A program made the position numbers and the translations under genes. Positions 5,399-23,146 of a stretch of DNA of 54,437 nucleotides are shown here, piece by piece; the stretch's first letter is position 1, and the number at the start of each line of letters is the position of its first letter. The DNA is from a virus: the IMG/VR virus record IMGVR_UViG_3300034102_000374, positions 1 to 54,437 of that record, one strand, 5' to 3'. The notes beneath the pieces are model-generated. The model saw only the letters and a list, made by a program, of their open reading frames with translations. It had not been told where the DNA came from and made no database searches.

Positions 5399-6109
5399 AT
5401 GGAAATATATGACGAAAATTCAAATCATTGGTTTACAAAAGATAGATCAGAGACTGCATCAAACAGGGTTCCTGCAAGAAAATTAGACAACACTGTAAGT
5501 GTTGAAAACCTAGGTTTAGGGTTACATGTATACCATGATACATTTTCTTTAGATGACGCAAACAGATACATCAATACGCTTGAGTCAAACCTTTCAAGAG
5601 GTGGCAAATATAAGTGGTCAGAAGCACAAGTAACGAACTCTACAACACCGATTAAAAAGGCTAGAGATGCTGTAGACTTTAAATACAAGCAAGAAAACTT
5701 GGGGCCAAGAGATAAAACAAACTCTGAACTTATAGATTTGCATGAAGAGATTTATCAAAAACTTAAGTACTGCATAGATGACTATGCAAAGTATTGGGGA
5801 ATAAACGTTGTATATTATGAAGCCTTTAATTTTGTAAAGTATGAGGGTGCTGGAACTCATTTTAATATTCACGCTGATCATGGCCCTGCTTATAACTGTA
5901 CTGTTTCTGCTGTTATTTATATAAATGACGACTATGAAGGTGGGGACTTAAAGTTTCCAAGACTTGACAACTTAGTCTATAAACCAAGAGTTGGAGACAT
6001 AGCAGTCTTTCCATCAAACTATATTTATGAACATGCATCACTTCCTATGGAGTCTGGTACAAAATACTGTGTTGTCATTATGACAGACATCAATGAACTG
6101 AGTCACTAA
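5399..6109 (+). CDS. 2OG-Fe(II) oxygenase 1, prolyl-4-hydroxylase-like
   Basis: This 236-residue protein has the full prolyl-4-hydroxylase-type signature. The HxD pair is H158/D160 (in NIHADHG), the distal histidine is H212 (in YEHASLP), and K222, ten residues on, is the expected 2-oxoglutarate C5-carboxylate ligand. The core strand motif YINDDYEGGDLKFP lies between them. The double-stranded beta-helix occupies roughly residues 140-235. Enzymes of this fold couple 2-oxoglutarate decarboxylation to hydroxylation of a substrate such as proline. It is the first of seven such genes in tandem and overlaps the next gene by one base (TAATG). The substrate is unknown. Confidence 0.9.
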   Translation: MEIYDENSNHWFTKDRSETASNRVPARKLDNTVSVENLGLGLHVYHDTFSLDDANRYINTLESNLSRGGKYKWSEAQVTNSTTPIKKARDAVDFKYKQENLGPRDKTNSELIDLHEEIYQKLKYCIDDYAKYWGINVVYYEAFNFVKYEGAGTHFNIHADHGPAYNCTVSAVIYINDDYEGGDLKFPRLDNLVYKPRVGDIAVFPSNYIYEHASLPMESGTKYCVVIMTDINELSH

Positions 6110-6888: not shown

Positions 6889-6898
6889 GGGATATATT

Positions 6899-7555
6899 AT
6901 GCAAACATGGACAGATAGACAAGACCTTGGCAATGGAATCTTTTGCTACAAGGGCGTAATCAAAAAAGAAATTGATGTTATTAATAGACTAGAGTCTAAC
7001 TTAAAGCCTGTGGGAGATACTACAGGATATGCTTGGCTACCAGCATATGTTGGATACAAGCAACTAATGCCAGACTATAGAGATTGCAATGATTTTAAGT
7101 TTAAGAAAACAGACATCGAATATGATAAAAGTCCAACAAGCCTTAAACTTCAGGAACTTTGGCAAGATGTCTATGATGCACAGGCTCCTGCAGTTGAAGA
7201 TTATTGCAAGATCCACAACATTCATGAACTAAAGTACTGGGAAGCGTTTAACTTTATTAAGTATGGACCAGGCCAGCACTTCCAAGAGCACCACGACCAT
7301 GGCTTCTCCTACAACTGCACAGTGTCTCTTGTTGCTTATGTAAATGATGATTACGATGGTGGAGAACTAAACTTTAGACTTCAGAATTTGACTGTTAAGC
7401 CAGAGGCTGGAGATCTCTTTATATTCCCTTCAACCTTTATGTATCCTCATCGTGCAATGCCAGTACACTCAGGTACAAAATATTCTATTGTTACAATGCT
7501 TGACTACAATAAGAAGTTTCACACTCCAGAAATGTATGTTGCGGACAAAGACTAG
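6899..7555 (+). CDS. 2OG-Fe(II) oxygenase 2, prolyl-4-hydroxylase-like
   Basis: This is a 218-residue protein from the ATG at 6899. An in-frame ATG at 6839 would add 20 residues overlapping the upstream gene and is less likely. Metal ligands are H131/D133 (EHHDHGF) and H184 (YPHRAMP), with K194 as 2-oxoglutarate anchor. It is the closest relative of oxygenase 1 in this window: both have EAFNF-x-KY, then HF-x-x-H-x-DHG, YNCTVS, and NDDY-x-GG in register. A recent duplication with one gene inserted between is likely. It ends in TAGTG, overlapping the next gene by one base. The ribosome site is weak (AAGGG), so coupling to the upstream gene may matter. Confidence 0.88.
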   Translation: MQTWTDRQDLGNGIFCYKGVIKKEIDVINRLESNLKPVGDTTGYAWLPAYVGYKQLMPDYRDCNDFKFKKTDIEYDKSPTSLKLQELWQDVYDAQAPAVEDYCKIHNIHELKYWEAFNFIKYGPGQHFQEHHDHGFSYNCTVSLVAYVNDDYDGGELNFRLQNLTVKPEAGDLFIFPSTFMYPHRAMPVHSGTKYSIVTMLDYNKKFHTPEMYVADKD

Positions 7556-8271
7556 TGTTTAATATTTCAGTTGAAAAAACTCCAGGATGTCTTTTTGAGA
7601 TATCTCCAATGTCTATTAAAAGAGACTGGATGGATGACACTTCTGAAAACCACGCTTATAGATGTTTCCCAGTAACTCAGGCAAACGTTGTTGGATATAG
7701 TCTATCTTGCACAGAAGATATTGAGTTTGAGTGGGATGGAATAAATGATCAAACACCTGACCACGTTAAAATCTTAAGTCCAGAAAGAGCATATTCTGGG
7801 AGAGGACAATCATCTATTAGCATGGATACGGGTTTAATATTTAGAACAGATCAGGACGTTAGTATAATTGCTATTAATCCAGTCAACTATTTTAGTGATG
7901 AGTTTGAGACAATGTCTTCACTAATTAGTACATCTTTCTATGACAACCCTTTCCCTTTAGCACTTAAGGCAAAGACAGCAAATAAAAGAATAGTCATTAA
8001 AGCAGGAACTCCAGTTGCAACAATTATTCCAATATCTTTGACACAACTAAACAACACAGTTATAAAAATGGTTGACTATAAAGATGAGGACAGAAAAAGA
8101 GTAGAAGCAAACATCTCATATGGTGAAGCAGCCCAAGTTGTAAACTCTACTGGAGAATGGACTGACTGGTATAGAAATGCTGTTAACGAAAAGCAAGAGT
8201 CTCTAGGGTCTCACGAAGTAAAGACTTTAAAACTTAGTGTAGAAGATCAAACAACTCAGGGCAGACCATGA
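7555..8271 (+). CDS. DUF6065-like protein B of the oxygenase island
   Basis: This is a 238-residue protein beginning at GTG, overlapping the previous stop by one base. It shows CFPVTQANVVGYSLSC followed by DIEFEWDG (about residues 40-65), the central GLIFRTDQDVSIIAINPVN, an NPFPL stretch and AGTPVATIIPIS. This order parallels the gene at 6109. Cys-Pro, the Gly-Tyr, the D-[IL]-x-F strand, the P-[MV]-N and the GTP..x..P sites are all kept. It resembles the DUF6065 family better than its paralogue does, although I cannot run a search. No catalytic residues are known to me. It ends in an ATGA overlap with the next gene. Confidence 0.62.
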   Translation: MFNISVEKTPGCLFEISPMSIKRDWMDDTSENHAYRCFPVTQANVVGYSLSCTEDIEFEWDGINDQTPDHVKILSPERAYSGRGQSSISMDTGLIFRTDQDVSIIAINPVNYFSDEFETMSSLISTSFYDNPFPLALKAKTANKRIVIKAGTPVATIIPISLTQLNNTVIKMVDYKDEDRKRVEANISYGEAAQVVNSTGEWTDWYRNAVNEKQESLGSHEVKTLKLSVEDQTTQGRP

Positions 8272-8723
8272 ATGAATTAAATCCAACACACTCTGATATA
8301 GTTAATGACTACATCAAAAGTTCTAAAGAAGGCAAGGTTGGTCATTATATGATAACTGTTTCAAGAGATGGAGAGTCTCCTGTAAGATCTATCATATCTT
8401 TTGATAATCTAGAGCAGGCCTTAGAAGGTTATGAAATGTATCAAGATGCTGGGTTTGCAAAAAACTACCTAACAGTCTCTATGTATGAGCCATCTGGACA
8501 AATAAACACAAAGGTTTTAAAAAGAAACCACGCAGGAGATCCATCATTTGTAAGGCAAAACTATATTGATACAGTAGAAGCATTGCATTATTTGAAGGAT
8601 AAGTTAGACAAAAAAGACTATGAAGATGTCTGTATTAAGATTGTTACTTCTTTTGCAAAAGATAATTGGAGATTCAACGCAGAAAGATTCTTAAAACAAC
8701 TAGAGATAGAGAGGACATTGTAG
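8268..8723 (+). CDS. Hypothetical protein within the oxygenase island
   Basis: This is a 151-residue protein that starts in an ATGA overlap with the upstream gene. It is mixed alpha/beta, with an N-terminal strand pattern (GHYMITVSRDGESPVRS), a helix (NLEQALEGYEMYQDAGF) and a charged helical C-terminus. No family was recognised, and there are no Cys/His metal clusters or membrane segments. The N-terminal part has the look of a small ligand- or protein-binding domain. Its tight coupling to the DUF6065-like gene suggests a joint function. Confidence 0.6.
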   Translation: MNELNPTHSDIVNDYIKSSKEGKVGHYMITVSRDGESPVRSIISFDNLEQALEGYEMYQDAGFAKNYLTVSMYEPSGQINTKVLKRNHAGDPSFVRQNYIDTVEALHYLKDKLDKKDYEDVCIKIVTSFAKDNWRFNAERFLKQLEIERTL

Positions 8724-8735
8724 GGCAAAACCCTA

Positions 8736-8744
8736 TGATATAAT
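8736..8744 (+). promoter_or_regulatory. Extended -10 promoter placing the start at the ATG (leaderless)
   Basis: TGATATAAT ends 6 bases before the ATG at 8751. A start site 7 bases after the -10 would be the A of the ATG, so the mRNA would be leaderless. No Shine-Dalgarno is present before 8751. It opens a second transcription unit in the oxygenase island. Confidence 0.65.
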
Positions 8745-8750
8745 TCAATT

Positions 8751-9425
8751 ATGGACAAAATGGATGCTTCTGTTGTAATTAGAAAACCGTCACTAACGCC
8801 ATCTGGCTGGTTTGGTAATGGTAAAGAGATGATTGTTGAGTTAGAAAATTTTATGACTCAAGAAGAAATAGAGTTTTTAGAGAAGGCTGCAAAGTCTTTG
8901 ACAATCTGGGATGTAACTCAAAGCCACGTTAACGAAAACGGAACAGTCGTATATGACTCTGAGTACTGGAAAGATCGAGTAGCCACTAGCCCAACTTTAG
9001 ATAAAAATGATCCAACAATCGCTCCAGTAATTGCAGGCCTGTTTCAAAGGCTTAAGCCAATCGTTGAAGAGTTCTATAAGGTAAAGGTTACCCCTACTGG
9101 TACAACTATCGTTAGATGGCTTCCAGGCCAGTTTCAGAACCCTCACGCAGACAAGGAACTGCACGAAGGCCCAGATGCTGGACTTCCAAATGATTTTCCA
9201 AACTATGATCTTTCAAGCCTATTTTATTTAAATGAGGACTATGAAGGTGGAGAGTTATACTTCCCACTACAGGGTGTACAGTTTAAACCTAAAAAGGGAG
9301 CAGCGTATTTTTTCCCAGGGGATATGAATTATGTTCACGGAGTAACAGAGATTAAGAGTGGTATTAGATACACATGTCCATTCTTCTGGGAGATAACAGA
9401 GCACACAGGAGACAGAAAGCCATGA
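8751..9425 (+). CDS. 2OG-Fe(II) oxygenase 3
   Basis: This 224-residue protein has the 2OG oxygenase ligands H132/D134 (NPHADKE), H196 (YVHGVTE) and R206, which replaces Lys as the 2-oxoglutarate anchor. A YLNEDYEGGELYFP strand pair lies between them. The insert after HAD (ELHEGPDAGLPNDFPNYD) is longer than in oxygenases 1 and 2. Translation probably starts at 8751 on a leaderless mRNA; 8760 is a second in-frame ATG three codons on. It overlaps the next gene by four bases (ATGA). Confidence 0.88.
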   Translation: MDKMDASVVIRKPSLTPSGWFGNGKEMIVELENFMTQEEIEFLEKAAKSLTIWDVTQSHVNENGTVVYDSEYWKDRVATSPTLDKNDPTIAPVIAGLFQRLKPIVEEFYKVKVTPTGTTIVRWLPGQFQNPHADKELHEGPDAGLPNDFPNYDLSSLFYLNEDYEGGELYFPLQGVQFKPKKGAAYFFPGDMNYVHGVTEIKSGIRYTCPFFWEITEHTGDRKP

Positions 9426-10282
9426 CAGAAAAACTCTTAGAGCATATTGAACTTTATCCAAAGATATTTGTATACAAGAATCTTTTTAAGGATATCAATA
9501 AGACACTTGAGATATTAAAAGACGAAAGCGAAGATGCTATTTTTAGTCCTTGGACCCAGTGGTCACACTTTGGGGAGTATCTGAATCCACTGTTTAAAAA
9601 CTACCCACACACAATGAGCATTGAAGATATGAGAAAGATAGAAACAAGAACAGAAAAAGAAGAAGCACAAAAACTTGCAATACTAGAAGTATTTGAAAAC
9701 TTTCATTTAGCAACCCAGGACTATATCCTTAAAAACAATGTCGATTTTGATAAAGACAAAGTATTGGTAAACCGTGAAGGAGAGTCCTTTAATCTTTGGA
9801 CAACAAATGGACCAGCAATCGCAAGATATAAAACGGATATAGAGGATTCTTTGGCAATGGCATACCACTCTGACTTTATCAGAGAACCAATTGTAAGTCC
9901 AGGATATAAGTTTGGAATTACTGCACTCACATACTTTAATGACGACTACGAAGGCGGAGAAATTGATTTTATTGTTGATGGAGAAGCCTATATGTATAAG
10001 CCAGAAGCAGGAGATTATTTAATTTTTCCATCTGGACATCCAGAAATACTCACAAAAGAAGGTCAGGTCTACCTACATGGTGTGATGCCAGCAAGGGGAG
10101 AAAAGAAATATATCTCCAGAATGTATTGGATGAAGTATGAGGTTGGCGATGACAAATGGTTTGAAAAAGAGGCTGAGTTTGGAAAGGATGTTTGGAAAGA
10201 AATGCAACCAGACATTATGCAAAAATTTAGAGATGCTCATCCTAATAAAATGAATGCTGATAAAGAAAAGAGAATAAAATGA
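9422..10282 (+). CDS. 2OG-Fe(II) oxygenase 4, longer form
   Basis: This is a 286-residue protein starting at the ATG overlapping the previous stop. An upstream in-frame ATG at 9374 would lie deep inside oxygenase 3 and is rejected. Ligands are H149/D151 (AYHSDF), H219 (YLHGVMP) and K229. It keeps FNDDYEGGEIDF. It has a longer helical N-terminal half (about 130 residues) than the other copies and a charged C-terminal tail of about 45 residues, which could define its substrate or partner. It is coupled to the next gene by a four-base overlap. Confidence 0.86.
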   Translation: MTEKLLEHIELYPKIFVYKNLFKDINKTLEILKDESEDAIFSPWTQWSHFGEYLNPLFKNYPHTMSIEDMRKIETRTEKEEAQKLAILEVFENFHLATQDYILKNNVDFDKDKVLVNREGESFNLWTTNGPAIARYKTDIEDSLAMAYHSDFIREPIVSPGYKFGITALTYFNDDYEGGEIDFIVDGEAYMYKPEAGDYLIFPSGHPEILTKEGQVYLHGVMPARGEKKYISRMYWMKYEVGDDKWFEKEAEFGKDVWKEMQPDIMQKFRDAHPNKMNADKEKRIK

Positions 10283-11025
10283 ACCTAGAAAATAAAAAGA
10301 GAATTACAAAAGACATCGTTATTTATGAAAACTTTATTGATGAAGAGACTTGTCAAAAAATGATACAGGCGTTAGATGCTCAGGCAGATAACGGAAAAAT
10401 CTCTTGGATGCCCATATCATTCTATGAGTCATATTCTTCTGTTCTTCCACAAGACAACGACCAAGAACTACTTGATGCTGGACTATCTTCAACTATTTTT
10501 TCCGACATTGAAAAGGCAATGCCAGAAGCAATCGCTTCAGTCCACGACCTTGACCCAAAGATAATTTCTAAAATTGGATACCACACACAAAAGTGGGAAC
10601 CAGGAGCATATGCAAGAATACACTCAGACAATACAGATGCTGAGGGAAATTCTGGAGCATTCACAAGAAGCCGTTATGCTGGGTTCTTATACCTTAATGA
10701 TAATTTTGAAGGCGGACTACTAAAGTTCCCAGGACAAGACATTAGTATTCAACCAAAAGTTGGAATGCTTGCTGTTTTTGACGGAGGATTTAATAATATG
10801 CACGAGGTAACTTTAATAGAAAGTGGAGTAAGATATACCATTGGATCTTTTTGGGATGACAGAGAAGAGTCTGCTTACCCTCAAGAACTAAGAGATGCCT
10901 GGGCAGAAGAAATGAAAGCAACAAGAGCCCAGCAAGAAATTGAAAGAGCAGAGTGGCAAGAACTCCTTAAAGAAGGATACAAAATAGATACTGATGGAAA
11001 CAAATACAAAGTGGAGGAAAAGTAA
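10279..11025 (+). CDS. 2OG-Fe(II) oxygenase 5
   Basis: This 248-residue protein has H115/D117 (ARIHSDN), H175 (NMHEVTL) and R185 as 2-oxoglutarate anchor, with YLNDNFEGGLLKFP between. The N-terminus reads DIVIYENFIDEETCQKMI, the usual first strand and helix of prolyl-4-hydroxylase-like enzymes. It also has a C-terminal helix rich in Glu, Arg and Gln (about residues 205-235). It is joined to oxygenase 4 by an ATGA overlap. A GGAGG near its end serves the next gene. Confidence 0.87.
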   Translation: MNLENKKRITKDIVIYENFIDEETCQKMIQALDAQADNGKISWMPISFYESYSSVLPQDNDQELLDAGLSSTIFSDIEKAMPEAIASVHDLDPKIISKIGYHTQKWEPGAYARIHSDNTDAEGNSGAFTRSRYAGFLYLNDNFEGGLLKFPGQDISIQPKVGMLAVFDGGFNNMHEVTLIESGVRYTIGSFWDDREESAYPQELRDAWAEEMKATRAQQEIERAEWQELLKEGYKIDTDGNKYKVEEK

Positions 11026-11688
11026 ATGGACATTTTTTTAAAAAAAGAGTTTGAGGATGCAGGATATAATACAGAAGTTTTTCACGATGGCGTTTTGTTT
11101 ATCAAAGATTTTTTAAAAGAAAAAGAACTTGATACTATCTTAGAGATAATCAAAACAACTCCAGAAGAAGATTGGTCTATAGAATATACAAAAAACCTTG
11201 CCAGGTTCTGTATGGAAAAATTTGGCAGAGACGATGTCGATAATCTTGTTGCTGAGGGTAAATTTGAAATAACTCAAAACTGGCAAGATAAAAATTTAGA
11301 TATTACAAAAGAAGAGATTAGCAAAACCCTTCAGGTGAGGCTTGGGAATTTAATAAAACTATCAGATCCTAGCCTAGAACTCGCTGGCTTTGGAACTCTG
11401 CAAAGAATGCAAGAAGGAGTAGAACTAAAGGCTCATACAGATCAGCATACAGACCCATCAATTAAATATGCTGCTATACTATATATCAACGATGACTATA
11501 AGGATGGGACTCTATTCTTTAAGAATAAAGAAAATTCAGACTTAAGACCAGCACCAGGAACATTGCTTCTTTTCCCAGGAAACGAAGAATATGAACATGG
11601 AGTTCGTTTTGTAGGAGAAGGACCTATTCGTTATGTTACGGTAGGGTTTATAAAAATTACAGGTTTTTACGAACATAATAAATTCTAA
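11026..11688 (+). CDS. 2OG-Fe(II) oxygenase 6, divergent
   Basis: This 220-residue protein starts directly after the previous stop, with GGAGG at 11013-11017. Ligands are H137/D139 (KAHTDQH), H191 (YEHGVRF) and R202, eleven rather than ten residues after the distal His. The strand motif that is NDDYEGGE in most copies is NDDYKDGT here, so the first Gly and the acidic residue are changed. This copy may have a different substrate pocket. The metal triad is intact, so it is probably active. Confidence 0.85.
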   Translation: MDIFLKKEFEDAGYNTEVFHDGVLFIKDFLKEKELDTILEIIKTTPEEDWSIEYTKNLARFCMEKFGRDDVDNLVAEGKFEITQNWQDKNLDITKEEISKTLQVRLGNLIKLSDPSLELAGFGTLQRMQEGVELKAHTDQHTDPSIKYAAILYINDDYKDGTLFFKNKENSDLRPAPGTLLLFPGNEEYEHGVRFVGEGPIRYVTVGFIKITGFYEHNKF

Positions 11689-11699
11689 GGAGATATAAA

Positions 11700-12326
11700 A
11701 TGGACAGAGAAATACTTGAAGAAAAGGTTTACTATTACACAAACGTAATTGAGGATCCAAAGAAACTTGTTGAGGCAATTGAAAATGACAACAAGGATGA
11801 ATGGGGAGAGTGGATGGCGTGTAGCGGACAGCACTATGTCTACGGAACAGACAAGAGTATCTCACAAGCAGATCCCTCAGATGAAAAAAATACATATATT
11901 TATTCAACACTCCAAAAGGCTTTTGACGATGTAGCAAGAGACTACGCAGCAGCCCACGGTATCACAGAAGAACCTAAACTGTTTCCAATGTATCCAATTA
12001 AGAAGTACATGGCTGGAACATTTATGGGGGCACACTTTGATCAGCAAGAGGGAGATGAAAGACTTAAGGTTTCTTTCGTAATGTACCTCAATGATGATTA
12101 TGAGGGTGGAGAGATTTCTTTTACAATTAGAGATCCAAAGGGCCCAATTCAAGGTCCAACTCCAGATTCAGATTTTGCAAATGCAGATCCTTCAGCATAT
12201 CATTTTGCAGTTAAGCCAAAGGCTGGAAGTATTATTGTATTTCCTCCATCACCACCATATCACCACACAGCACACCTAGTTAAGAGTGGTTATAAGTATA
12301 TGGTACCGCAACACTGGATTCACTAA
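11700..12326 (+). CDS. 2OG-Fe(II) oxygenase 7
   Basis: This is a 208-residue protein with a strong ribosome site (AAGGAGAT, 11688-11695). Ligands are H112/D114 (GAHFDQQ), H189 (second His of PYHHTAH) and K199. The strand motif YLNDDYEGGEISF is followed by a long Pro/Asp-rich insertion (about residues 137-160) before the second half of the barrel. It is the last of the seven copies. Having its own strong ribosome site, unlike the overlapping copies before it, suggests higher or independent translation. Confidence 0.87.
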   Translation: MDREILEEKVYYYTNVIEDPKKLVEAIENDNKDEWGEWMACSGQHYVYGTDKSISQADPSDEKNTYIYSTLQKAFDDVARDYAAAHGITEEPKLFPMYPIKKYMAGTFMGAHFDQQEGDERLKVSFVMYLNDDYEGGEISFTIRDPKGPIQGPTPDSDFANADPSAYHFAVKPKAGSIIVFPPSPPYHHTAHLVKSGYKYMVPQHWIH

Positions 12327-12444: not shown

Positions 12445-14478
12445 ATGTCAGATTTTTTTAGTTTTAAACTTCCAGAGGACTTCGTAGAAAAGTACAAGAA
12501 CCAAGAAAGCCCATTTGGGTTTAAGGATGCAGCAGAAAATTCACTTGGAGAAATTACTTTTATTCGTACATATTCTCGCATGAAGGAAGATGGAACTAAA
12601 GAAAGATGGCACGAGGTGTGTCGCCGTGTAATCGAGGGTATGTATTCAGTACAGAAGAATCATGCTAAAGAAAACCGTTTACCGTGGAATGATTACAAAG
12701 CACAGAAGTCTGCACAAGAAGCATTCCAAAGAATGTTTGAATTAAAATGGACACCACCAGGTCGTGGCATGTGGGCATTTGGAACCCCTATGACTATGGA
12801 GAAGAAGAACTCAGCAGCACTACAAAACTGTGCAATGGTTTCAACAAAGGACCTTGATAAGAATGATCCAGGAGCCTTGTTTGCTTGGGTAATGGATGCA
12901 TTGATGCTTGGCATTGGTGTAGGGTTTGATACAGTGGGACAGGATAAGCATTTTGCAATCTATGCCCCAACAGAACCTGAACAGGTGTTCGAAATCCCAG
13001 ACACTCGTGAGGGATGGGTAGAGTCAGTCAGACTTCTTATAAACTCTTACCTTAGAGCAAACCAAAGCATTCAGAAGTTTAACTATGATTTGATTAGACC
13101 CCTAGGAGCCCCTATAAAGGGCTTTGGAGGCGTTGCATCAGGTCCTGCACCTCTTATCAAGTTGCACGACTATATAGACCGTGTAATCGGCTCCAGAGCA
13201 GGTGAAACACTAGACTCTCGTGCTATCGTAGACCTTGTAAACCTTATTGGTACCTGTGTGGTATCAGGTAACGTAAGACGCTCAGCAACTCTTGCTTTGG
13301 GAAATGCTGGGGATGAAACATTTATGAATCTAAAGAACTCAGAGATGTTCCCAGAGCGTAACTCATTTGACCCAGAAAATCCAGGTTGGGCTTGGATGTC
13401 TAATAATTCTATTTCAGCAGAAGTAGGAACAAAGTACGAAGACTATGTAGATTTAATTACGGAAAACGGAGAACCAGGTTTTATTTGGCTTGATGTTGCT
13501 CGTAATTATGGCAGGCTAAAGGATGCGCCAGATGGAAAAGACTATCGTGTGATGGGCTTTAATCCCTGTGCGGAGCAGCCATTAGAATCATATGAATTAT
13601 GTACACTTGTAGAAGTGCACTTGAATCGTCATGAATCTAAGGAGGACTTCCTGCGTACCCTGAAGTTTGCATACCTATATGGAAAGACTGTAACACTTGT
13701 TCCAACACACTGGCCACAAACAAACGGTATCATGCAACGCAACCGTCGTATTGGTACATCACTTACTGGTATTGCATCATTTGCAGATCAAAAAGGTTTG
13801 CCAGTTGTCCGTGAATGGATGGACGAAGGGTATAACAAGATTCGTCACTACGATCATCAGTACTCTGAATGGCTATGTGTTCGTGAATCAATTCGTGTAA
13901 CAACGGTTAAGCCATCAGGATCAGTTTCAATTCTTTCTGGTGCAACTCCTGGAGTTCACTGGGGACCTGGAGGAAACTTCTTCCTTCGTGCAGTTCGATT
14001 TGGAACTACAGATCCAATGATGCACTTGTTCAAAGCAGCAGGGTACACAATTGAAGATGACGTAGTATCAGCAAACACATCAGTTGTATACTTCCCAATC
14101 AAGTCAGGTCATCCAAGATCTGAAAAGGATGTAACATTATTTGAAAAGATTGCACTTGCTGCAACTGCTCAAAAGTACTGGTCTGACAACGGTGTTTCTG
14201 TAACACTTTCATTTGACAAGGAAACAGAATCAAAGCACATTGTTCCAGCACTAAATATGTATGAGGGACAACTAAAGGCTGTTTCATTCTTGCCAATGGG
14301 AAATATGGTTTATCCTCAGCAGCCGTATACTCAAATTACGGAAGAGCAATATGAGTCATATATTGGCAAGTTAAAGCACATTGATTTTGCTGCTATCTAT
14401 GACGGTGTAGACAATCTTGAGGCTCAAGGTGAAGCATACTGCACAACAGACTATTGTGAAATTAAAATAAACAAGTAG
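12445..14478 (+). CDS. nrdJ: Class II (adenosylcobalamin-dependent) ribonucleoside-triphosphate reductase
   Basis: This 677-residue monomeric reductase converts ribonucleotides to deoxyribonucleotides using adenosylcobalamin as radical source. C375 and E377 in FNPCAEQPLE correspond to the thiyl-radical Cys and catalytic Glu. C129 (LQNCAMVS) and C386 (eleven residues after C375) are the redox pair. C666 and C671 at the end form the C-x4-C tail that re-reduces the active site. GNVRRSATLALG and the PSGSVSILSG substrate-phosphate loop are also present. All five functional cysteines are kept, so it is probably active and makes dNTPs for phage replication. It needs B12 from the host or environment. 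It is slightly shorter than the 739-residue Lactobacillus enzyme. Confidence 0.93.
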   Translation: MSDFFSFKLPEDFVEKYKNQESPFGFKDAAENSLGEITFIRTYSRMKEDGTKERWHEVCRRVIEGMYSVQKNHAKENRLPWNDYKAQKSAQEAFQRMFELKWTPPGRGMWAFGTPMTMEKKNSAALQNCAMVSTKDLDKNDPGALFAWVMDALMLGIGVGFDTVGQDKHFAIYAPTEPEQVFEIPDTREGWVESVRLLINSYLRANQSIQKFNYDLIRPLGAPIKGFGGVASGPAPLIKLHDYIDRVIGSRAGETLDSRAIVDLVNLIGTCVVSGNVRRSATLALGNAGDETFMNLKNSEMFPERNSFDPENPGWAWMSNNSISAEVGTKYEDYVDLITENGEPGFIWLDVARNYGRLKDAPDGKDYRVMGFNPCAEQPLESYELCTLVEVHLNRHESKEDFLRTLKFAYLYGKTVTLVPTHWPQTNGIMQRNRRIGTSLTGIASFADQKGLPVVREWMDEGYNKIRHYDHQYSEWLCVRESIRVTTVKPSGSVSILSGATPGVHWGPGGNFFLRAVRFGTTDPMMHLFKAAGYTIEDDVVSANTSVVYFPIKSGHPRSEKDVTLFEKIALAATAQKYWSDNGVSVTLSFDKETESKHIVPALNMYEGQLKAVSFLPMGNMVYPQQPYTQITEEQYESYIGKLKHIDFAAIYDGVDNLEAQGEAYCTTDYCEIKINK

Positions 14479-14485
14479 TCTTCTG

Positions 14486-14494
14486 TGGTAAAAT
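14486..14494 (+). promoter_or_regulatory. Extended -10 close to the ATG of the large virion protein
   Basis: TGGTAAAAT lies 9 bases before the ATG at 14504. The T-to-A change at the third position of the hexamer weakens it. The transcript would have at most a few leader bases. No Shine-Dalgarno is seen. Confidence 0.5.
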
Positions 14495-14503
14495 AGACCT
14501 ATA

Positions 14504-17500
14504 ATGTCTAATCCATCAAACCTGTATGCAGAGAAAATATATGCTGAACACCCAATGGCTTTTTGGGCTCTGGATGATAAGTCAGACTATATCAGTTTAA
14601 TTACAGATGCTCAAAGAGATATATCGGATGCAGATTATTGGAAAGAGATAGAGGGTGGCTCTGCAGTTTTATCTGATCCTGACGGTTCTTCTCCATTTCC
14701 AGAAACTCCAGAAACAACAATAACTGGAGATCTAACAGAAAATGATTTTGGGCAGATAGTCTGTATAAGCAAAGACATAGCCAATTTTACTTCATTAAAC
14801 AAAGAAATGTCAACCTTTTCAATAGGGGCATTTCTTAAGTCTTTAAGTGTTTATGTTTATAGTTTTGAGATAGGATATGAGTACTACGACACGGCTAGTT
14901 CAAGCACAATCCAAAGACTAAAAACTTATGTCTCATCTGTACAAGATAGATGGGTGTTTATTTCAGAAACGTTCGATATACCAGAAGAAAATACAACCTT
15001 TAGAATTGTTATAAAAATTAACTATATTGGACAAGGCAATAACATAAACGATTATAAGTTTTTGGTTAATGGGATTTCAGTGGGACAATGGTCAGAAGAA
15101 TTTAACTCTTCTTCTCTTGGAGTTATTGGAGATTTTATTCCAAACAATATATCTATAGAACCTACTTACGGTATTGAAGCGAATGCCTACGGGCGACAAG
15201 ATAAAAAAGGGTATTACCTAATATCAAACGAAAGTCTTATGGCAAAAAATACTGGAATCCCCTTGGTATACGGTGCCTCTGGACTTACAAAACTTTTGCC
15301 AAATTCAAACTCTTATGGAATGACATATAAAATTAATAGTATTCCTGGCTCTTATGTTTTTGCTGGGACTTCAAATCCAACAATTACAGTAACCCGTGGA
15401 TCAACCTACACATTTAATATGAATACTCCTGGGCACCCATTTGCTATACAGTCAACATCTGGAGGATATAACTCTTCCAATGAATATAAAACTGGAGTAA
15501 ATAATCCAGGAGCAGCCGTTGGAGATATCACTTGGGTTGTTCCAGAAAACTCTCCAAGCACTCTCTACTATGTTTGCAAGAACCATGAATCAATGACTGG
15601 GCAAATTAATGTTGTTGATCCAGCCCCAAAGCCATCTCTAGTTATTCCAGGGCAAGGATTTCTGGGTGCTGATGGACAATACAAAGAGTATACCTTAGAG
15701 GCATGGCTAAGAATCAATTCAGATTCAATAACAAAAAAGCGAATCATAGGACCACTAGGATCTGACGATGGTCTTTATGTAGAAGGGCCGTACTTGATTT
15801 TAAAGGTTGGAACAAACTATGGATCATACTATGTTGGTGAATGGACAAGGCCAATGCTTTCTCATATAAGGGTTGGAGAAGACAATGCTTCTTTGCTTAT
15901 AAATGGAGAAGAAGTTATTTCATTAAGATATTTAACTAGGGAGTTGTCTTTCCCAGTTAGTTTGGATTCAGATAAAAGAAACCAAGACTGGATTGGGTTT
16001 TATGCTTATGAGGATGTGTCTCCAATTGAAGTTGACTGCGTTGCCTTATACACATACAAAGTTCCGATTGTCTTGGCTAAAAAAAGATTTGTTTACGGCC
16101 AAGGGGTAGAGTTTCCAGAAGGGATTAACCAAGCCTACAGTGGTTCTTCTATATATGTTGACTATCCATTTGCAAAGTATGCAAATAACTATTCTTACCC
16201 TAGCATAGGTAATTGGTCACAAGCAACTGTAGATAATTTAAAAACAGATAGAAATCTTTTGTCTACTCCAGACTATAAGTTGCCAGAAATTGTCCTAGGG
16301 GGACTTGTCGTAGAAGGCTTAGACTCTTCACGTTTTTCTTTGGAAAATGAAGAAGATATATCATTTTCTCTTGCACCAGTTGGTTCGTATCTATACTTTG
16401 ACAGTCTAAATTTTTTAAAGGAAAAGGTAAAATCTTTTTATGGATCATTTAAGATTACATCTTTTTCAACAACAAAGCAGGTATTGTTCAGGGCCGAATC
16501 AAAAACATCACCAAACTACTTTGAAATATCTTGTACTGGACCTACCGTAGTTTATACTTTAAGTTATAATGGTACAGAGCAAACCCTATTAACCTTGTCT
16601 CAATTAGACCTAAATGAAATGTTTTCTATAGGCGTAGACATAGATACAATATCTCACTATTTTGGAGGAAGCGTTGCATCCTTCTTTGGTAATTCTAGCA
16701 GTCTTAATTTTTATATTGCAGGCAGTTCAAACCCAGAAGAAACATTTTCTGGGAAAATATATAAGACTGGATTCTGTACTTCTAGAAATCACAAAGCCAT
16801 TGCAGCATTCTTTAGTGAAAAAGGAATTGTAAGACAAAGTGATGATGTCTTTGAAGAGTATTTAAACACACCAGACGTTGACTATAACTCAACTGATGAA
16901 TATTTTGGAAACAGTCCATCAGAGTGGGACTCAGTAATTGACCCAGGACTTCCAAGTTTAGCAACAGCAAACACCCTACAGGCACACACGGCAAGTTACA
17001 CTCTGTCCCCTTTGGTAAGTTTTGGATCTTATTCTTTAGACATAGATGTTCAGGGATACTGGGAAGATTACCTTCCCCTGACATACTTTGCAAAATTTAT
17101 AACAGATAACAAGAGCAAGCCGTATTATGATTTAGACTTTATTCAGTTTAATATAAATTATCCAGCACCATCTGTGTTTGTAGAAGAAGAGCAGTTTGGT
17201 TCTTGGACATATAGAGAACTGTCTGATGTTTATAATATTCCAATTCAAAGAGACTATACTTCTTTAGATAATCAACTATTTACTGGCTACCTAGACTACA
17301 CAGACTTAAGAGATAGGGTATATAGAAATTATAAATACGACACATCAAACTCTCTTGTAAAATCTTACATAACATTTCAATATATTAAAAATGGAGCAAA
17401 CCTATCATTAGAGAACTTTATAAATACAGAGAAACCTTCAAACGACTCTTTTGTTGTTCCTGGAGAAAGTTGGAGAAACACCAAGTATGAGGTTGTAGAT

Positions 17501-18535
17501 AATATGGTAATCTACACTCCAAAAGATGTTAGCAATCTGGACCTTGCAATTGTTACCCACCTTGACTTTAATGTTAAAGGAATATTAAAAAATAATGTTG
17601 CAATTAGAACTCTAGAATATTCTTCTCAGGCGTTTAACAATACTTCACCAAACCCTATTGGCACAAGATTTGGACATTCTTTATTCCCATACAAAAAATC
17701 TGGATTCTACTACGACTATAAGACTGAGAACCCTTTTACAATTTATAAGGGCACCTCCCCATACCTTTACTTGACAAGATATTCTGGTATAGAAATAAAA
17801 GGCACTATGGACCCAACAATCAATAGAGGGCTTTCTATTTCAGTTAACAAAGAAAAATCAGACAACTTTAAAGTTATGGCTTTACAGATGGCGGTTCGAT
17901 ATGATAAAGATGCGTTCCCATACGGATCTATAGAAGTTTTTGAAATTAAAGCAAGGGATAGGCACATAAAGTTTTATCTATCTGCAATCCATCCTCAAGG
18001 ACACAGGGCAAAAATCTATGCAGTAGATGCAAATACTGGAAGACTAGAAAATGGAATTAAGTTTTACCTTAATGGAAAAGTCGTAAAAGATCCAGTTTTG
18101 ACAGTTAAAGAATGGGCATTCGTAGGAATATCCTTTCCAAAGGTATTAGACTTTAAAAACAGGGTTGGATTAATTAATCTTAACGGACCCCTGATGTTTA
18201 ACACAATATCTTATTATGAATCTAGCAACTTGCAAGAAGGCGAAGAAGAAGAGTTTAGAAGATGGTTTGGAGTTAAATACATTCTTCCAGAAAACATTGA
18301 GTGGGGATACTGGACTGATGGAGGGGGCCTTTGGGATGGGGTCCTAACGCTTTCCAAAACAAACTATTATGGCATTGATCCATCAACAATCTATAAGAGT
18401 TATACAGGAACTAATAAGATTATTATTGATAGTCAGGCATCCCTAGTAATTGACAATGCTAGATCAAGCACTGAGCACGAGTATCGTATATATTCTGGTA
18501 TTAACTCGAAACTAATAACCACTACTGCCATCTAA
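14504..18535 (+). CDS. Large multidomain virion protein with LamG-like and cupredoxin domains
   Basis: This 1343-residue protein begins with a HPMAFWALDD motif typical of phage proteins with concanavalin/LamG-like jelly rolls. Residues about 280-372 form a plastocyanin-like domain: RGSTYTFNM strand, H311 in TPGHPF, then C358, H361 and M364 in YVCKNHESMTG. These four are the classical type 1 copper ligands. A LamG-like segment follows (about residues 390-525, YTLEAWLRI ... LLINGEEV), and further beta-rich sandwich domains fill the rest, with another LamG-like stretch near residue 1170. No signal peptide is present. It is probably a virion surface or minor tail protein, although it sits upstream of the portal and away from the other tail genes. 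Copper binding is inferred from ligands only. Confidence 0.75.
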   Translation: MSNPSNLYAEKIYAEHPMAFWALDDKSDYISLITDAQRDISDADYWKEIEGGSAVLSDPDGSSPFPETPETTITGDLTENDFGQIVCISKDIANFTSLNKEMSTFSIGAFLKSLSVYVYSFEIGYEYYDTASSSTIQRLKTYVSSVQDRWVFISETFDIPEENTTFRIVIKINYIGQGNNINDYKFLVNGISVGQWSEEFNSSSLGVIGDFIPNNISIEPTYGIEANAYGRQDKKGYYLISNESLMAKNTGIPLVYGASGLTKLLPNSNSYGMTYKINSIPGSYVFAGTSNPTITVTRGSTYTFNMNTPGHPFAIQSTSGGYNSSNEYKTGVNNPGAAVGDITWVVPENSPSTLYYVCKNHESMTGQINVVDPAPKPSLVIPGQGFLGADGQYKEYTLEAWLRINSDSITKKRIIGPLGSDDGLYVEGPYLILKVGTNYGSYYVGEWTRPMLSHIRVGEDNASLLINGEEVISLRYLTRELSFPVSLDSDKRNQDWIGFYAYEDVSPIEVDCVALYTYKVPIVLAKKRFVYGQGVEFPEGINQAYSGSSIYVDYPFAKYANNYSYPSIGNWSQATVDNLKTDRNLLSTPDYKLPEIVLGGLVVEGLDSSRFSLENEEDISFSLAPVGSYLYFDSLNFLKEKVKSFYGSFKITSFSTTKQVLFRAESKTSPNYFEISCTGPTVVYTLSYNGTEQTLLTLSQLDLNEMFSIGVDIDTISHYFGGSVASFFGNSSSLNFYIAGSSNPEETFSGKIYKTGFCTSRNHKAIAAFFSEKGIVRQSDDVFEEYLNTPDVDYNSTDEYFGNSPSEWDSVIDPGLPSLATANTLQAHTASYTLSPLVSFGSYSLDIDVQGYWEDYLPLTYFAKFITDNKSKPYYDLDFIQFNINYPAPSVFVEEEQFGSWTYRELSDVYNIPIQRDYTSLDNQLFTGYLDYTDLRDRVYRNYKYDTSNSLVKSYITFQYIKNGANLSLENFINTEKPSNDSFVVPGESWRNTKYEVVDNMVIYTPKDVSNLDLAIVTHLDFNVKGILKNNVAIRTLEYSSQAFNNTSPNPIGTRFGHSLFPYKKSGFYYDYKTENPFTIYKGTSPYLYLTRYSGIEIKGTMDPTINRGLSISVNKEKSDNFKVMALQMAVRYDKDAFPYGSIEVFEIKARDRHIKFYLSAIHPQGHRAKIYAVDANTGRLENGIKFYLNGKVVKDPVLTVKEWAFVGISFPKVLDFKNRVGLINLNGPLMFNTISYYESSNLQEGEEEEFRRWFGVKYILPENIEWGYWTDGGGLWDGVLTLSKTNYYGIDPSTIYKSYTGTNKIIIDSQASLVIDNARSSTEHEYRIYSGINSKLITTTAI

Positions 18536-18537
18536 TA

Positions 18538-18554
18538 TGGTATACTTTAGTATA
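18538..18554 (+). promoter_or_regulatory. Extended -10 promoter with palindrome, leaderless start
   Basis: TGGTATACT (18538-18546) ends 7 bases before the ATG at 18554. The -10 is part of a perfect palindrome, TATACT-TT-AGTATA (18541-18554), that runs into the start codon. It would start the head-gene transcript with essentially no leader. Confidence 0.6.
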
Positions 18555-18958
18555 TGAATACTCAAGATCCACGCAAAAAGAAGAAAGCCTTGCCAAAAAT
18601 GAAGGGGCAAGTGGGTGAGTCCCGTGCAAGAATTATTGAAAAGCATTATGATTGGGGTCTATATGTTTATAAAAAGGCCAACGGCAAGTGGTTTACAGAC
18701 GGCACTGGTTCTGTTTTAAACATTGAATCAATGAAGGGCGACATTCTTCAGATTTCTAAACTAAAAGAAGCAGCAAAATATTACGGGGATGAAGGAGATG
18801 GCGAATGCATCTTCGTACCAGGATTAACAAGAATCTCAGAAGAAGAGTACTCTGAACAAAAGCAAAGATTAGCAGAAGGACTTATTCCTTCTATGAACGA
18901 CCTTGGCGCTGTGCAAGCAGCCAAAGATACTATTGCAAAATATGGAAGTGATGACTAA
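18554..18958 (+). CDS. Hypothetical protein preceding the portal gene
   Basis: This is a 134-residue protein with a basic N-terminus (DPRKKKKALPKMKG), then a mixed segment with WGLYVYKKANGKWF, and an acidic C-terminal half. No family was recognised. It overlaps the portal gene by one base (TAATG), so the two are translationally coupled. In many siphoviruses this place holds the terminase, but nothing here resembles one. A small head-assembly or DNA-binding role is conceivable. Confidence 0.65.
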   Translation: MNTQDPRKKKKALPKMKGQVGESRARIIEKHYDWGLYVYKKANGKWFTDGTGSVLNIESMKGDILQISKLKEAAKYYGDEGDGECIFVPGLTRISEEEYSEQKQRLAEGLIPSMNDLGAVQAAKDTIAKYGSDD

Positions 18959-20565
18959 TGAGTGAAGACAAAGAATTTTTTATTAGAGCAAAGACAGATG
19001 TCCCTCTTCCAGAGGACGATACATTTACAAAGCAAGATCCTTTTAATCAGTCATGGGACGTTATCAAAGATCTTCACGGGCTTGACGCAAACTTTAAAAG
19101 AAGAACTTCTCGAATAATTAAAGGAGAGGCAACCCAGGCATACATAGATAGTTCAAGAGCAGAAAGTGTTGGTATCAACGGAGCAAGATCAAAAGAAATT
19201 AACTCAGGAACAGTATTTAGAAATGCTTATGGACTATTTGATGTAATCACTCCTCCATGGAATTTATATGAACTTGCAAGTTTCTATGATACATCTTTTG
19301 CTAACCACGCTGCCATTGATGCAAAAGTAGAAAATATTGTTGGTCTTGGCTATGAGTTTAAGATTTCAAAAAGAACTATGCTTAAGTTAGAAGCATCAGA
19401 ACCAAAGACTTCTGAGAATGCAAGAAAAAGAATTGAGCGAGCAAAGATTGAAATGACTGACTGGCTTGAATCGTTAAATGATGAAGACTCTTTTACAACA
19501 ACAATGGAAAAGGTCTTTACTGACTTGCAGTCAACTGGAAATGCATATTTGGAAATTGGTAGAACTACTCGTGGAGAGATTGGATATGTTGGTCATATTC
19601 CATCTACTACAATGCGTGTTCGTAGGCTTAGAGATGGCTTTGTCCAGGTTATTGCAAACAAGGTTGTTTACTTCCGTAACTTTGGAGCAACAAACGCAAA
19701 CCCACTAGGAACAGATCCAAGACCAAATGAGATTATTCATTTTAAAGAATACTCACCCTTAAATACTTTTTATGGAGTTCCAGATATTATGTCTGCCATT
19801 GGATCTCTTCACGGAGACCAACTTGCATCACAATACAACATTGACTACTTCCAGAATAAGGCAACCCCAAGATACGTTGTAACCCTAAAGGGTGCAAAGT
19901 TATCTGCAGAAGCAGAAGATAAGATGTTTAGATTTTTACAGACAGGGCTTAAGGGACAAAATCATAGAACTCTTTATATCCCACTACCAGGAGACTCTGA
20001 CACTAACAAGGTAGAGTTTAAGATGGATCCTGTAGAGAACGGAATCCAAGAAGCATCATTTAAGGAATATAGAAAACAGAACAGAGATGACATTCTTGTT
20101 GCTCATCAAGTTCCTCTTTCTAAGATTGGTGGCTCTGACTCCTCAGCCATTGCTGCTGCGCTCTCACAGGACCGCACCTTTAAAGAGCAGGTTGCAAGAC
20201 CAGCACAGAGAAACCTTGAGAAGATGATTAATAAAATTGTAAAAGAAAAAACAGATATCCTGGAGTTTAAGTTCAATGAACTTACCCTTACAGATGAAAT
20301 TGCTCAATCACAGATTATCGAAAGACTTGTTAAGACACAGGTTATGCTTCCAAATGAAGGTCGAGAACTTCTTGGTCTTCCACAGATTGAGGGCGGTAAC
20401 GAGCCTTTCGATCCAAAGCCAGAGCAAGCAGCAAATGATAATGCGGACAGAGCAAGGGACACTGAAAGAACAAACAACCAGTCTGACGGACCAGCCACAG
20501 TAAGTGGAAGAAATCCAAAAGGCGAAGGTCGTAAAGTTGATGATGTGCCCGAAATGTCCAAATAG
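18958..20565 (+). CDS. Portal protein
   Basis: This 535-residue protein matches the HK97/PBSX-type portal pattern. It has an N-terminal clip region, then WNLYELASFYDTSFANHAAI, a long helical wing, GNAYLEIGRT, HFKEYSPLNTFYGVPDI (about residues 261-277), and the TPRYVVTLKGAKLS strand. Next come KQNRDDILVAHQVPLSKIG, which is highly typical of these portals, and a helical C-terminus with LPNEGRELLGLPQIEGG. The portal forms the dodecameric ring at one vertex through which DNA is packaged and ejected. It is followed by the protease and capsid genes in the usual order. The last 50 residues are polar and probably disordered. Confidence 0.9.
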   Translation: MSEDKEFFIRAKTDVPLPEDDTFTKQDPFNQSWDVIKDLHGLDANFKRRTSRIIKGEATQAYIDSSRAESVGINGARSKEINSGTVFRNAYGLFDVITPPWNLYELASFYDTSFANHAAIDAKVENIVGLGYEFKISKRTMLKLEASEPKTSENARKRIERAKIEMTDWLESLNDEDSFTTTMEKVFTDLQSTGNAYLEIGRTTRGEIGYVGHIPSTTMRVRRLRDGFVQVIANKVVYFRNFGATNANPLGTDPRPNEIIHFKEYSPLNTFYGVPDIMSAIGSLHGDQLASQYNIDYFQNKATPRYVVTLKGAKLSAEAEDKMFRFLQTGLKGQNHRTLYIPLPGDSDTNKVEFKMDPVENGIQEASFKEYRKQNRDDILVAHQVPLSKIGGSDSSAIAAALSQDRTFKEQVARPAQRNLEKMINKIVKEKTDILEFKFNELTLTDEIAQSQIIERLVKTQVMLPNEGRELLGLPQIEGGNEPFDPKPEQAANDNADRARDTERTNNQSDGPATVSGRNPKGEGRKVDDVPEMSK

Positions 20566-20588
20566 TGATACTTTAGCAAAAAAGGGTA

Positions 20589-20599
20589 TATAATATAAT
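20589..20599 (+). promoter_or_regulatory. Double -10 element just before the protease ATG
   Basis: Two overlapping TATAAT hexamers (20589-20594 and 20594-20599) lie 5-10 bases before the ATG at 20604. There is no Shine-Dalgarno. The first hexamer places the start close to the ATG, so this is another likely leaderless start. There is no TG extension. Confidence 0.5.
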
Positions 20600-20603
20600 A
20601 ACC

Positions 20604-21962
20604 ATGATTATCTCTAAAGCCAATTGGAATACAGATGGAGACAGCCTCCGCTTATCTATGCCACTTACTAAGGTGGACAAGGAGCGTCGAATCGTTTCTG
20701 GGTTTGCATCACTTGACAATATTGACAAGCAAGATGACATTGTAACAGCAGAAGCATCAATGGATGCATTTGCAAAGTTCCGTGGGAACATTAGAGAAAT
20801 GCACCAGCCATTAGCAGTAGGCAAGATGGTAGACTTTAAAGCAGAAAAGTATTTCGATCCAGAATCAAAGAAGTTTTATAACGGAGTATTCGTATCTGCA
20901 TATGTTTCAAAAGGTGCACAAGATACTTGGGAAAAAGTTCTAGACGGAACACTTGCTGGTTTTTCTATTGGCGGAAGAATGAATAAGTGGGACGATGCTT
21001 ATGACGAGAAGTTAGACAAATCAATCCGTGTTATTAAGCAGTATGATTTAGTTGAGTTGAGTCTTGTAGATTCCCCAGCAAATCAATTTGCAAACATCGT
21101 ATCTGTTGAAAAGGTAGATGGCGTAGATGTAATTAAGGCTGATGAAACAGTTTTAGAAAATGTATTTTATGATAAGGAAAATGGAATAGTCCTTGCATCT
21201 GAAAATGAATCAGAGTTAAGCCCAATAACTGGTGAGCAAATGGAAAACATAGGTTTCGTTGAAAAGACAGATAACGAAAAAGTAACAATGATAAAATTCT
21301 TAGTTGATAGTGCTAAAGGCATTAATACTTCTAAGATTAACAAGGAGGAAAACCTTATGGCAAAATCAACAAAAAACACAGTTGAGGAAATCGTTGAGAA
21401 ATCTGATATTGCAGTTGAAGCAACAGAGGTCGCTCCAGAGGCAGATGCGAAAGCAGATGTAGTAGAGACTCCAGCAGAAGAAGTTTCAACAGAGAAGGCT
21501 GCGAAAGCACCATCTTCTGTCGAAGAAGATGCTGAAGAAGATGCTGCGGAAACTCCAGCAGATGAAGAGGCAGAGGCTAAGAAGCCAATGGCTCCTAAGT
21601 CAGATGAAGTAGTTGCAGAAGCACCAGTTGCAGAAGCAGTTACAGAAACAAATGACGGTCTTGAAAAAGCCTTTAGCGATCTAGTAGAAGTTGTCAAATC
21701 ATTACAAACAGAGGTAGAATTTTTGAAGTCTACCAAGGTTGATATTGAAGTGGCACAAACATCATTTGAAGCAGTTGCAAAAGATATTGCATCAGCAACA
21801 AGTGTATTTAATGAATTTGGTAAGCGTGTGGAACTTGTAGAGCAAGACACTGCTTTCCGAAAGTCTGGCGATCTCGGCGAGATAGTACAGAATCAGCCTG
21901 AAACGGTTGAAAAATCCCTATGGGGCGGTAGTTTCCTCAAAACAGCCGACTTATTTAATTAA
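20604..21962 (+). CDS. Prohead protease-scaffold fusion (HK97-type serine protease)
   Basis: This is a 452-residue protein. Residues about 15-175 are an HK97-type prohead protease: RIVSGFASLDNIDKQDD, H67 (EMHQP) as catalytic His, GFSIGG, and S153 in VELSLVDSPANQ as nucleophile. Residues about 250-452 are Ala/Glu-rich and end in a coiled-coil segment (about residues 354-415), as expected of a scaffold. The protease trims scaffold and capsid termini during maturation. A strong internal Shine-Dalgarno and an in-frame ATG at 21357 predict a second product, the scaffold alone. The gene directly precedes the major capsid gene. Confidence 0.88.
   Translation: MIISKANWNTDGDSLRLSMPLTKVDKERRIVSGFASLDNIDKQDDIVTAEASMDAFAKFRGNIREMHQPLAVGKMVDFKAEKYFDPESKKFYNGVFVSAYVSKGAQDTWEKVLDGTLAGFSIGGRMNKWDDAYDEKLDKSIRVIKQYDLVELSLVDSPANQFANIVSVEKVDGVDVIKADETVLENVFYDKENGIVLASENESELSPITGEQMENIGFVEKTDNEKVTMIKFLVDSAKGINTSKINKEENLMAKSTKNTVEEIVEKSDIAVEATEVAPEADAKADVVETPAEEVSTEKAAKAPSSVEEDAEEDAAETPADEEAEAKKPMAPKSDEVVAEAPVAEAVTETNDGLEKAFSDLVEVVKSLQTEVEFLKSTKVDIEVAQTSFEAVAKDIASATSVFNEFGKRVELVEQDTAFRKSGDLGEIVQNQPETVEKSLWGGSFLKTADLFN
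21342..21348 (+). promoter_or_regulatory. Internal Shine-Dalgarno for a nested scaffold product
   Basis: AAGGAGG lies 8 bases before the in-frame ATG at 21357, inside the protease-scaffold gene. This is as good a ribosome site as any in the window, and better than that of the full-length gene, which appears leaderless. Confidence 0.7.
21357..21962 (+). CDS. Nested scaffold protein (internal in-frame start)
   Basis: This product of 201 residues would begin MAKSTKNTVEEIVEKSD and share the C-terminal part of the protease-scaffold fusion. It is acidic and Ala/Glu/Pro-rich (about residues 17-100), then forms a coiled coil (DLVEVVKSLQTEVEFLKS), the usual scaffold composition. The arrangement parallels lambda C/Nu3, where the scaffold is made from an internal start in the protease gene. 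An excess of scaffold over protease is what head assembly needs, and the strong internal ribosome site would supply it. The protein is predicted, not shown. Confidence 0.65.
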   Translation: MAKSTKNTVEEIVEKSDIAVEATEVAPEADAKADVVETPAEEVSTEKAAKAPSSVEEDAEEDAAETPADEEAEAKKPMAPKSDEVVAEAPVAEAVTETNDGLEKAFSDLVEVVKSLQTEVEFLKSTKVDIEVAQTSFEAVAKDIASATSVFNEFGKRVELVEQDTAFRKSGDLGEIVQNQPETVEKSLWGGSFLKTADLFN

Positions 21963-21997
21963 AAAAACAATAAGTAAAAATCACAGGAGGTGACAAT

Positions 21998-23146
21998 ATG
22001 TCGGAACAAAATATAGAAAAGAACCAGCCTGGAACATCAGGTCAACTTGGTGGAACAGCACCAGGTCTGTATCAGGGACAAGGTGCATTCGCATCTGGAT
22101 CTGAAGCAGGTTCAAATGTACCAGGTAATTACACCGATGGTGGCGTGTTAGGAAATATCCCAACAGCACTATCAGGAGTTACATCTGGACCAAATGCAGT
22201 TAACCCTTCAGGTGAGGCTGGATCAGGTATCCTACGCCCAGAGCAAGCACGTCGTTTTATTGACTACGTGTGGGATGCTACCATTCTCGCCCAAGATGGC
22301 CGTCGTGTTACTATGAGAGCCAATACAATGGAACTCGAAAAGGTAAACGTCGGAGAGCGTGTTATTCGTGCAGCAGCGCAAGCAGTTGGCGACTACACAA
22401 ACGCAGGTGCAACATTCTCAAAGGTTGAATTGACTACAAAGAAGATTCGTCTTGACTGGGAAGTATCTGCAGAAGCACTAGAAGATAACATCGAAGGTGC
22501 AGCACTAGAAGATCACATTGTACGCTTGATGACAAATGCTTTCGGTAATGATATCGAAGACCTTGCAATCAACGGAACAGGTGCAGGATCAGACGCATTC
22601 CTTTCAATCATGGAAGGTTTCGTAAATCGTGTTAAGACTGACGGAGACGCACACGAATCAGTTGTAACCGTAGCAGATAATGCTTGGACAACAGACGTAA
22701 TGCAGAACATCATTCTTGCAATGCCACGTAAGTATCGTGCTATCAAGTCTAACTTGAAGTTCTATGCTGGTACAGATGCATTCCAGGGAATCGTTAAGAA
22801 CAACGGTACCCTAGCAGACGCAGTTGCTGAAGCATTTGCTTCACAGGCTGGCGGAACTCCAATGAATCGTCAGGCATACCTTGACGGTGGAGCACAGACA
22901 TTCGGTGGAGCACGTACAACACGTGTTCTCGGAATTGACGTACAGGAAGTTCCATACTACCCTGCAGGATATGTCGACTTGACATTCCCACAGAACCGTG
23001 TATGGGGATTCCAGCGTGACATCACTGTAAACCGTGAATACCGTCCAAAGAAGGACACTGTAGAATATACAGTATTCGTTCGCTTTGGTATTCAATGGGA
23101 AGAGCAGGATGCAATCGCATTCGCTGACGCTGCATCAGATGCATAA
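21998..23146 (+). CDS. Major capsid protein, HK97 fold
   Basis: This is a 382-residue protein with the strongest ribosome site in the window (AGGAGGTGA, 21985-21993), which fits an abundant product. The first about 75 residues are Gly/Ser/Pro-rich and flexible, a likely protease-removed or disordered arm. ILRPEQARRFIDYVWDATIL then starts the folded part. RVIRAAAQAVGDYTNAGATFSKVELTTKKI is the E-loop/beta-hinge region, DIEDLAINGTGAG the spine-helix end, and the A-domain spans about residues 235-345 (LKFYAGTDAFQGIV). The C-terminal strands (FVRFGIQWEEQDAIAF) are typical of HK97-type capsid proteins. It assembles the icosahedral head. Confidence 0.9.
   Translation: MSEQNIEKNQPGTSGQLGGTAPGLYQGQGAFASGSEAGSNVPGNYTDGGVLGNIPTALSGVTSGPNAVNPSGEAGSGILRPEQARRFIDYVWDATILAQDGRRVTMRANTMELEKVNVGERVIRAAAQAVGDYTNAGATFSKVELTTKKIRLDWEVSAEALEDNIEGAALEDHIVRLMTNAFGNDIEDLAINGTGAGSDAFLSIMEGFVNRVKTDGDAHESVVTVADNAWTTDVMQNIILAMPRKYRAIKSNLKFYAGTDAFQGIVKNNGTLADAVAEAFASQAGGTPMNRQAYLDGGAQTFGGARTTRVLGIDVQEVPYYPAGYVDLTFPQNRVWGFQRDITVNREYRPKKDTVEYTVFVRFGIQWEEQDAIAFADAASDA

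Follow-up and report, generated by a model that had tools for sequence, protein, structure and literature searches.

Can a phage virion protein carry a working type 1 copper centre? The question is raised by P0001, a probable tail-associated, lectin-like protein of 1343 amino acids encoded by an open frame at 14504..18535 of the IMG/VR virus record IMGVR_UViG_3300034102_000374, which was analysed as a single stretch of 54,437 nucleotides (the window); P0001 and all features described within it are on the plus strand. A sequence-only reading of this DNA had proposed a plastocyanin-like copper site in P0001, with complete conservation of its ligands. The explanation that we favour, and consider probable though well short of certain, is that a mobile domain of the cupredoxin type, bearing a type 1-like metal site, is lodged in a loop of a LamG domain of a tail-associated protein, where it would act as a host-contact accessory and not in electron transfer.

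All four proposed ligands are indeed present in one domain (residues ~270-376, 15311..15631) of the 1343-residue frame: H311 (15434..15436) in the motif TPGHPF, and C358 (15575..15577), H361 (15584..15586) and M364 (15593..15595) in the motif YVCKNHESMTG. The interval originally assigned to the site, 15351-15620, is one base off the gene frame and its literal translation contains stops, which matters for translation only. The ligand types are those of plastocyanin, as had been claimed, but the spacing is not, for the Cys loop has the pattern C-x2-H-x2-M of amicyanin and not C-x2-H-x4-M. A chance motif was ruled out because C-x2-H-x2-M is rare both in the window's frames and in shuffled P0001: it occurs once in the 21,261 residues of the window's open frames of at least 100 amino acids, and arose in 10 of 20,000 shuffles of P0001, or 3 of 20,000 with a histidine 35-60 residues upstream.

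The attribution of this domain to the cupredoxins is upheld by structure prediction. AlphaFold2, given 66 aligned rows of related domains (A2), modelled residues 270-376 with eight strands and a mean pLDDT of 96, and nearly all of the model's 50 Foldseek matches in the PDB at E <= 0.001 are cupredoxin proteins, at moderate similarity (TM-scores by query length of 0.47-0.65, rmsd of 4-9 angstrom). The top solved structures are led by rusticyanin and include AcoP, nitrite reductase, plastocyanin, auracyanin, laccases and amicyanin. At the sequence level, a profile built on 23 phage copies of the domain (A1) retrieved type 1 copper proteins of the same families from the PDB at E values of 7e-4 and weaker. 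These matches support a Greek-key beta-sandwich of the cupredoxin type as the predicted fold of residues ~270-376. In the model, H311 lies just ahead of strand 313-316, C358 closes the penultimate strand (353-358), and H361 and M364 are in the loop before the last strand, which is the typical cupredoxin arrangement. The His/Cys/His/Met set is thus predicted to lie at the topologically right places for a putative type 1 copper site, the first histidine by its position and joint conservation only. The model also has matches in BFVD to predicted "beta-sandwich proteins" (A0A481Z6J5, A0A481YVH3 and others) from metagenome genomes that resemble those of pithoviruses and marseilleviruses, at a TM to query of 0.73-0.83.

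Among known copper proteins, amicyanin shares the fold class and the C-x2-H-x2-M loop with the phage domain, and the two align without gaps; amicyanin itself, however, is a stand-alone electron carrier with its first histidine in a PHN motif, whereas the phage domain has HPF and is embedded in a large protein. Plastocyanin shares the fold and ligand types, but its His-Met stretch is two residues longer and appears as an insertion in alignments; this loop spacing rules it out as the closest type. C358 aligns with the ligand cysteine of both amicyanin and plastocyanin, H361 with the second ligand histidine and M364 with the axial methionine. The first histidine is the weakest point of the ligand assignment: sequence aligners set the phage HPF against FPH in plastocyanin and MPH in amicyanin, which puts the histidine two positions off. 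The first-ligand motif of rusticyanin, GHSFDI (G-H85-S-F-D-I), resembles the phage GHPFAI (G-H311-P-F-A-I), and His85 is the copper ligand of rusticyanin, although its C-to-H and H-to-M spacings are longer than those of the phage domain (VCQIPGHAATGM). Because the profile alignment with rusticyanin misplaces the first half of the domain, the case for equating the first histidines is made by motif, topology and the shared loss of the ligands. PF00127 (Copper-bind) was matched by six of the 23 phage copies with E values of at most 1 (the best 4.7e-5). The window copy had no PF00127 match in the Pfam search and matched only PF25489, below its cut-off; the Pfam At5g54830 match, below its cut-off, was left unused, and the NCBIfam search returned nothing useful.

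The A1 copies are 31-52% identical to the window copy, three close relatives excepted, and only eight of their columns are invariant; these include all four ligands, of which M364 is invariant in A2 as well. As the first DNA pattern used to collect copies includes the ligands, statistics on ligands were drawn only from a ligand-blind sample, obtained by scanning IMG/VR with a DNA pattern spanning only the DPxhxhxRGxTYxF strand region. Its 115 distinct complete domains have all four ligands in 101 cases, three in one, two in two, and one or none in 11. Once the set had been thinned until no pair reached 70% identity, 40 copies remained, of which 29 have all four ligands and none has exactly three; independent loss would leave 14.7 of 40 with all four, and none of 20,000 shuffles, which ignore shared descent, reached 29. 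The replacements in ligand-less copies differ (FGSS, ESSH, SSYM, HADI, QSSM, DGTF, YSEI and others), so that several separate losses are likely. This all-or-none pattern suggests that the metal site is kept whole or abandoned as a unit, and points to four ligands that form a working site, maintained or discarded together. The claim of complete conservation holds for the most part, and its support is stronger than had been stated, because all four ligands persist or disappear jointly; but it does not hold universally. Two of about eleven carrier lineages within the P0001 family retain the domain without the full ligand set: L389 (Y, C, N, M), in which both histidines are gone, and L385, which has Y, A, N, M.

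These exceptions invite the opposite reading, namely that the cupredoxin sandwich is a fold relic, a metal-free spacer or protein-binding decoration comparable to the Ig-like domains of phage tails, in which ligands persist by recent descent. Ligand-less copies do keep the fold and remain in tail proteins, as such a reading would have it, and the losses in L389 and L385 fall inside the P0001 family itself. Four surface-loop residues would otherwise be expected to drift singly, however, and the all-or-none pattern at low overall identity makes a relic unlikely. Metal binding by the module is, on the evidence of conservation and model, likely, and copper would be the natural metal for this ligand set.

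The setting of the domain within P0001 was examined in its relatives, found in 316 IMG/VR stretches of which the best 80 were kept. Two carbohydrate-binding types of domain are indicated by weak family matches: PF13385 (LamG) in 30 of 41 aligned members at E up to 0.1 (best 1.5e-4; the window copy, at 0.075, is below the cut-off) and CBM_4_9 in 12 of 41 (best 9e-4). A model of residues 1-560 (pLDDT 80) has carbohydrate-binding (CBM16/CBM22) and ConA-like folds among its Foldseek matches. We read the CBM-like matches as belonging to a predicted N-terminal beta-sandwich (residues ~30-215, approximately 14591..15148), and the LamG and ConA-like matches probably correspond to residues ~220-520 (approximately 15161..16063). 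The latter domain is split by an insert, and in the model the cupredoxin strands fall between those of the LamG-like domain. Alignment with orthologues places the inserted segment at residues 268-374 (15305..15625), against six residues in orthologues without the module; in the DNA, the stretch between fixed anchors measures 366 bases in carriers and 63 in non-carriers, so that the net insertion is exactly 101 codons.

Most orthologues of P0001 among the best 80 of 316 relatives lack the module, which occurs there in 16 contigs (about eleven distinct lineages); below 78% backbone identity, all full-length members of these 80 are without it. A search for a copy relocated elsewhere in 13 records of domain-less relatives, some of them fragmentary, found no match. 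The backbone tree requires two changes of presence, most simply read as a single gain, on the stem of a clade of 12 rows, and a single loss, in L387. It is also possible that L387 was emptied by recombination with an empty relative, because its empty linker is similar to the one in the sister clade that lacks the domain. L389 and L384 are 93% identical in the C-terminal part, yet the domain of L389 is nearer to that of the window, and these near-identical backbones appear to bear domains of different origin. In every pair with the window, dS is lower in the domain than in the backbone. The affinity of the L389 domain and the low domain dS suggest that the module has been exchanged among relatives. 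Median dN/dS is 0.28 in the domain versus 0.09 in the rest of the protein, consistent with purifying selection that is looser on the domain.

Beyond the relatives of P0001, the module is common in phages. With tblastn, 358 phage records match it at E up to 0.01, overwhelmingly phages of Synechococcus and Prochlorococcus, and the most common carrier is a gene annotated as gp9/gp10 "baseplate wedge tail fiber connector". PHROG_677, the corresponding cyanophage family (baseplate wedge tail fiber protein connector, gp9/gp10), has the same module as its C-terminal ~100 residues (E 1.8e-25). The match is confined to profile positions 307-410 of 412, and kinship of the whole protein with cyanophage gp9 was ruled out, since the module alone matches and the rest of P0001 is unrelated. 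The parts of P0001 that flank the module have no match in annotated phages. Other tail-fibre carriers include those of the podoviruses P-SCSP2 (Prochlorococcus) and HTVC028P (Pelagibacter). In S-SCSM1 the carrier bears the annotation of a long tail fibre subunit and the note "virion protein"; the authors who described this phage report a virion proteome by mass spectrometry (PMC9602691). Because its carrier is lectin-like and the same module occurs in annotated tail proteins elsewhere, P0001 is probably located in the virion, as had been supposed. Two further copies of the domain are found in a neighbour gene of cyanophage gp9 (L007 7330-8289, L024 3826-4749, L014 4339-5292), the first with the ligand residues and the second either without the Cys-loop ligands or ending before them.

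Bacterial and archaeal contigs (Flavobacteria, SAR86, SAR324 and others) also encode the domain, in short or longer proteins, many of which begin with lipoprotein-like signal sequences and are apparently exported; a viral origin is possible for some of the contigs. No description of a cupredoxin module in phage tail proteins was found in the open-licence literature, which is weak evidence of absence. The cupredoxin superfamily is classic, and neither the fold nor the kind of site is new; what appears to be undescribed, judging from the papers found, is the decoration of phage tail proteins by a mobile cupredoxin whose type 1-like site is conserved.

What such a site would do on a virion is a matter of speculation for all three functions that the sequence-only reading had offered (redox chemistry, stability, attachment to a copper protein of the host), and redox seems the least likely. 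A redox or electron-transfer domain borne on the virion would account for a ligand set that is that of electron-transfer cupredoxins, but P0001 has no second copper site, an unsystematic look at the window noticed no candidate partner, and it is hard to see which donor or acceptor would serve a domain set in a lectin loop; such a role is very improbable. Attachment could proceed by mimicry, if a host surface protein for exported cupredoxins or copper uptake were to recognise the copper-loaded module, a copper counterpart of the Trojan horse described for iron. The apparently exported character of the cellular copies and the housing of the module in a lectin-like host-contact protein would suit this mechanism, and metal-bearing tail fibres have already been proposed for iron (PMC11705849). 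In those fibres, of the T4 type, the metal is described as bound within the tail fibre (PMC11705849), a parallel to what is proposed here; but octahedral iron is bound at HxH sites between histidines of the fibre trimer, and this is not a cupredoxin site. Against mimicry, no host receptor is known, most orthologues evidently infect without the module, and loss of the ligands is tolerated, all of which makes it decidedly doubtful.

That the module sits in a lectin loop, is exchanged and can be dispensed with fits an accessory for host contact or display, and the role would be host contact or stability, not electron transfer. In the favoured explanation, the cupredoxin domain (residues ~270-376) would have been inserted into a surface loop of the LamG lectin-like domain of a probable tail-associated protein and exchanged among relatives of the carrier. 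In most copies, H311, C358, H361 and M364 would hold one metal ion, most likely copper, which would stiffen or shape a small domain displayed on a protein of host contact; in copies that do not need the metal, the ligands would decay together and the fold would stay. The two carrier lineages of the P0001 family without full ligands indicate that the site is dispensable. Free copper is scarce in the cytoplasm, where phage proteins fold, and this counts against the explanation. A broader proposition is that aquatic tailed phages widely employ type 1 copper centres as a working component of their adsorption apparatus, with virions that bear copper-loaded cupredoxins, related to exported host proteins, and use them in host contact; it is tentative and on balance rather unlikely.

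Were the module to bind copper, metal centres would be present on the tails of many abundant phages of aquatic habitats, above all cyanophages. Copper would then join the debate on viruses as metal ligands in water, which has so far centred on iron, and the module would be a concrete case of an exported metalloprotein domain common to phages and cells. Its natural ligand-less and domain-less relatives would be ready-made controls.

The phage itself is closest to Streptomyces phages, including Gilson (Stanwilliamsviridae), in its portal (46-48% identity) and major capsid protein (~44%), and shares with them the gene order at 12445-23146 (ribonucleotide reductase, other open frames, portal, protease, capsid). 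Because portal, capsid and gene order point to these phages, an actinobacterial host may be guessed. The Streptomyces-phage-like gene order and similarity contrast with a tail module that resembles those of cyanophages. At 5399-12326, the seven open frames of one cluster (5399, 6839, 8751, 9374, 10279, 11026 and 11700) all match the 2OG-Fe(II) oxygenase family PF13640 above the cut-off, and a protein of the DUF6065 family (PF19541, 7e-27) lies within the cluster at 7555-8271. Shortly before the cluster, at 3825-4814, is a protein with long proline-rich repeats of the FFPPFFPPYFP type and a Cys-rich end; at a guess, the oxygenases and this protein could be prolyl hydroxylases and their substrate.
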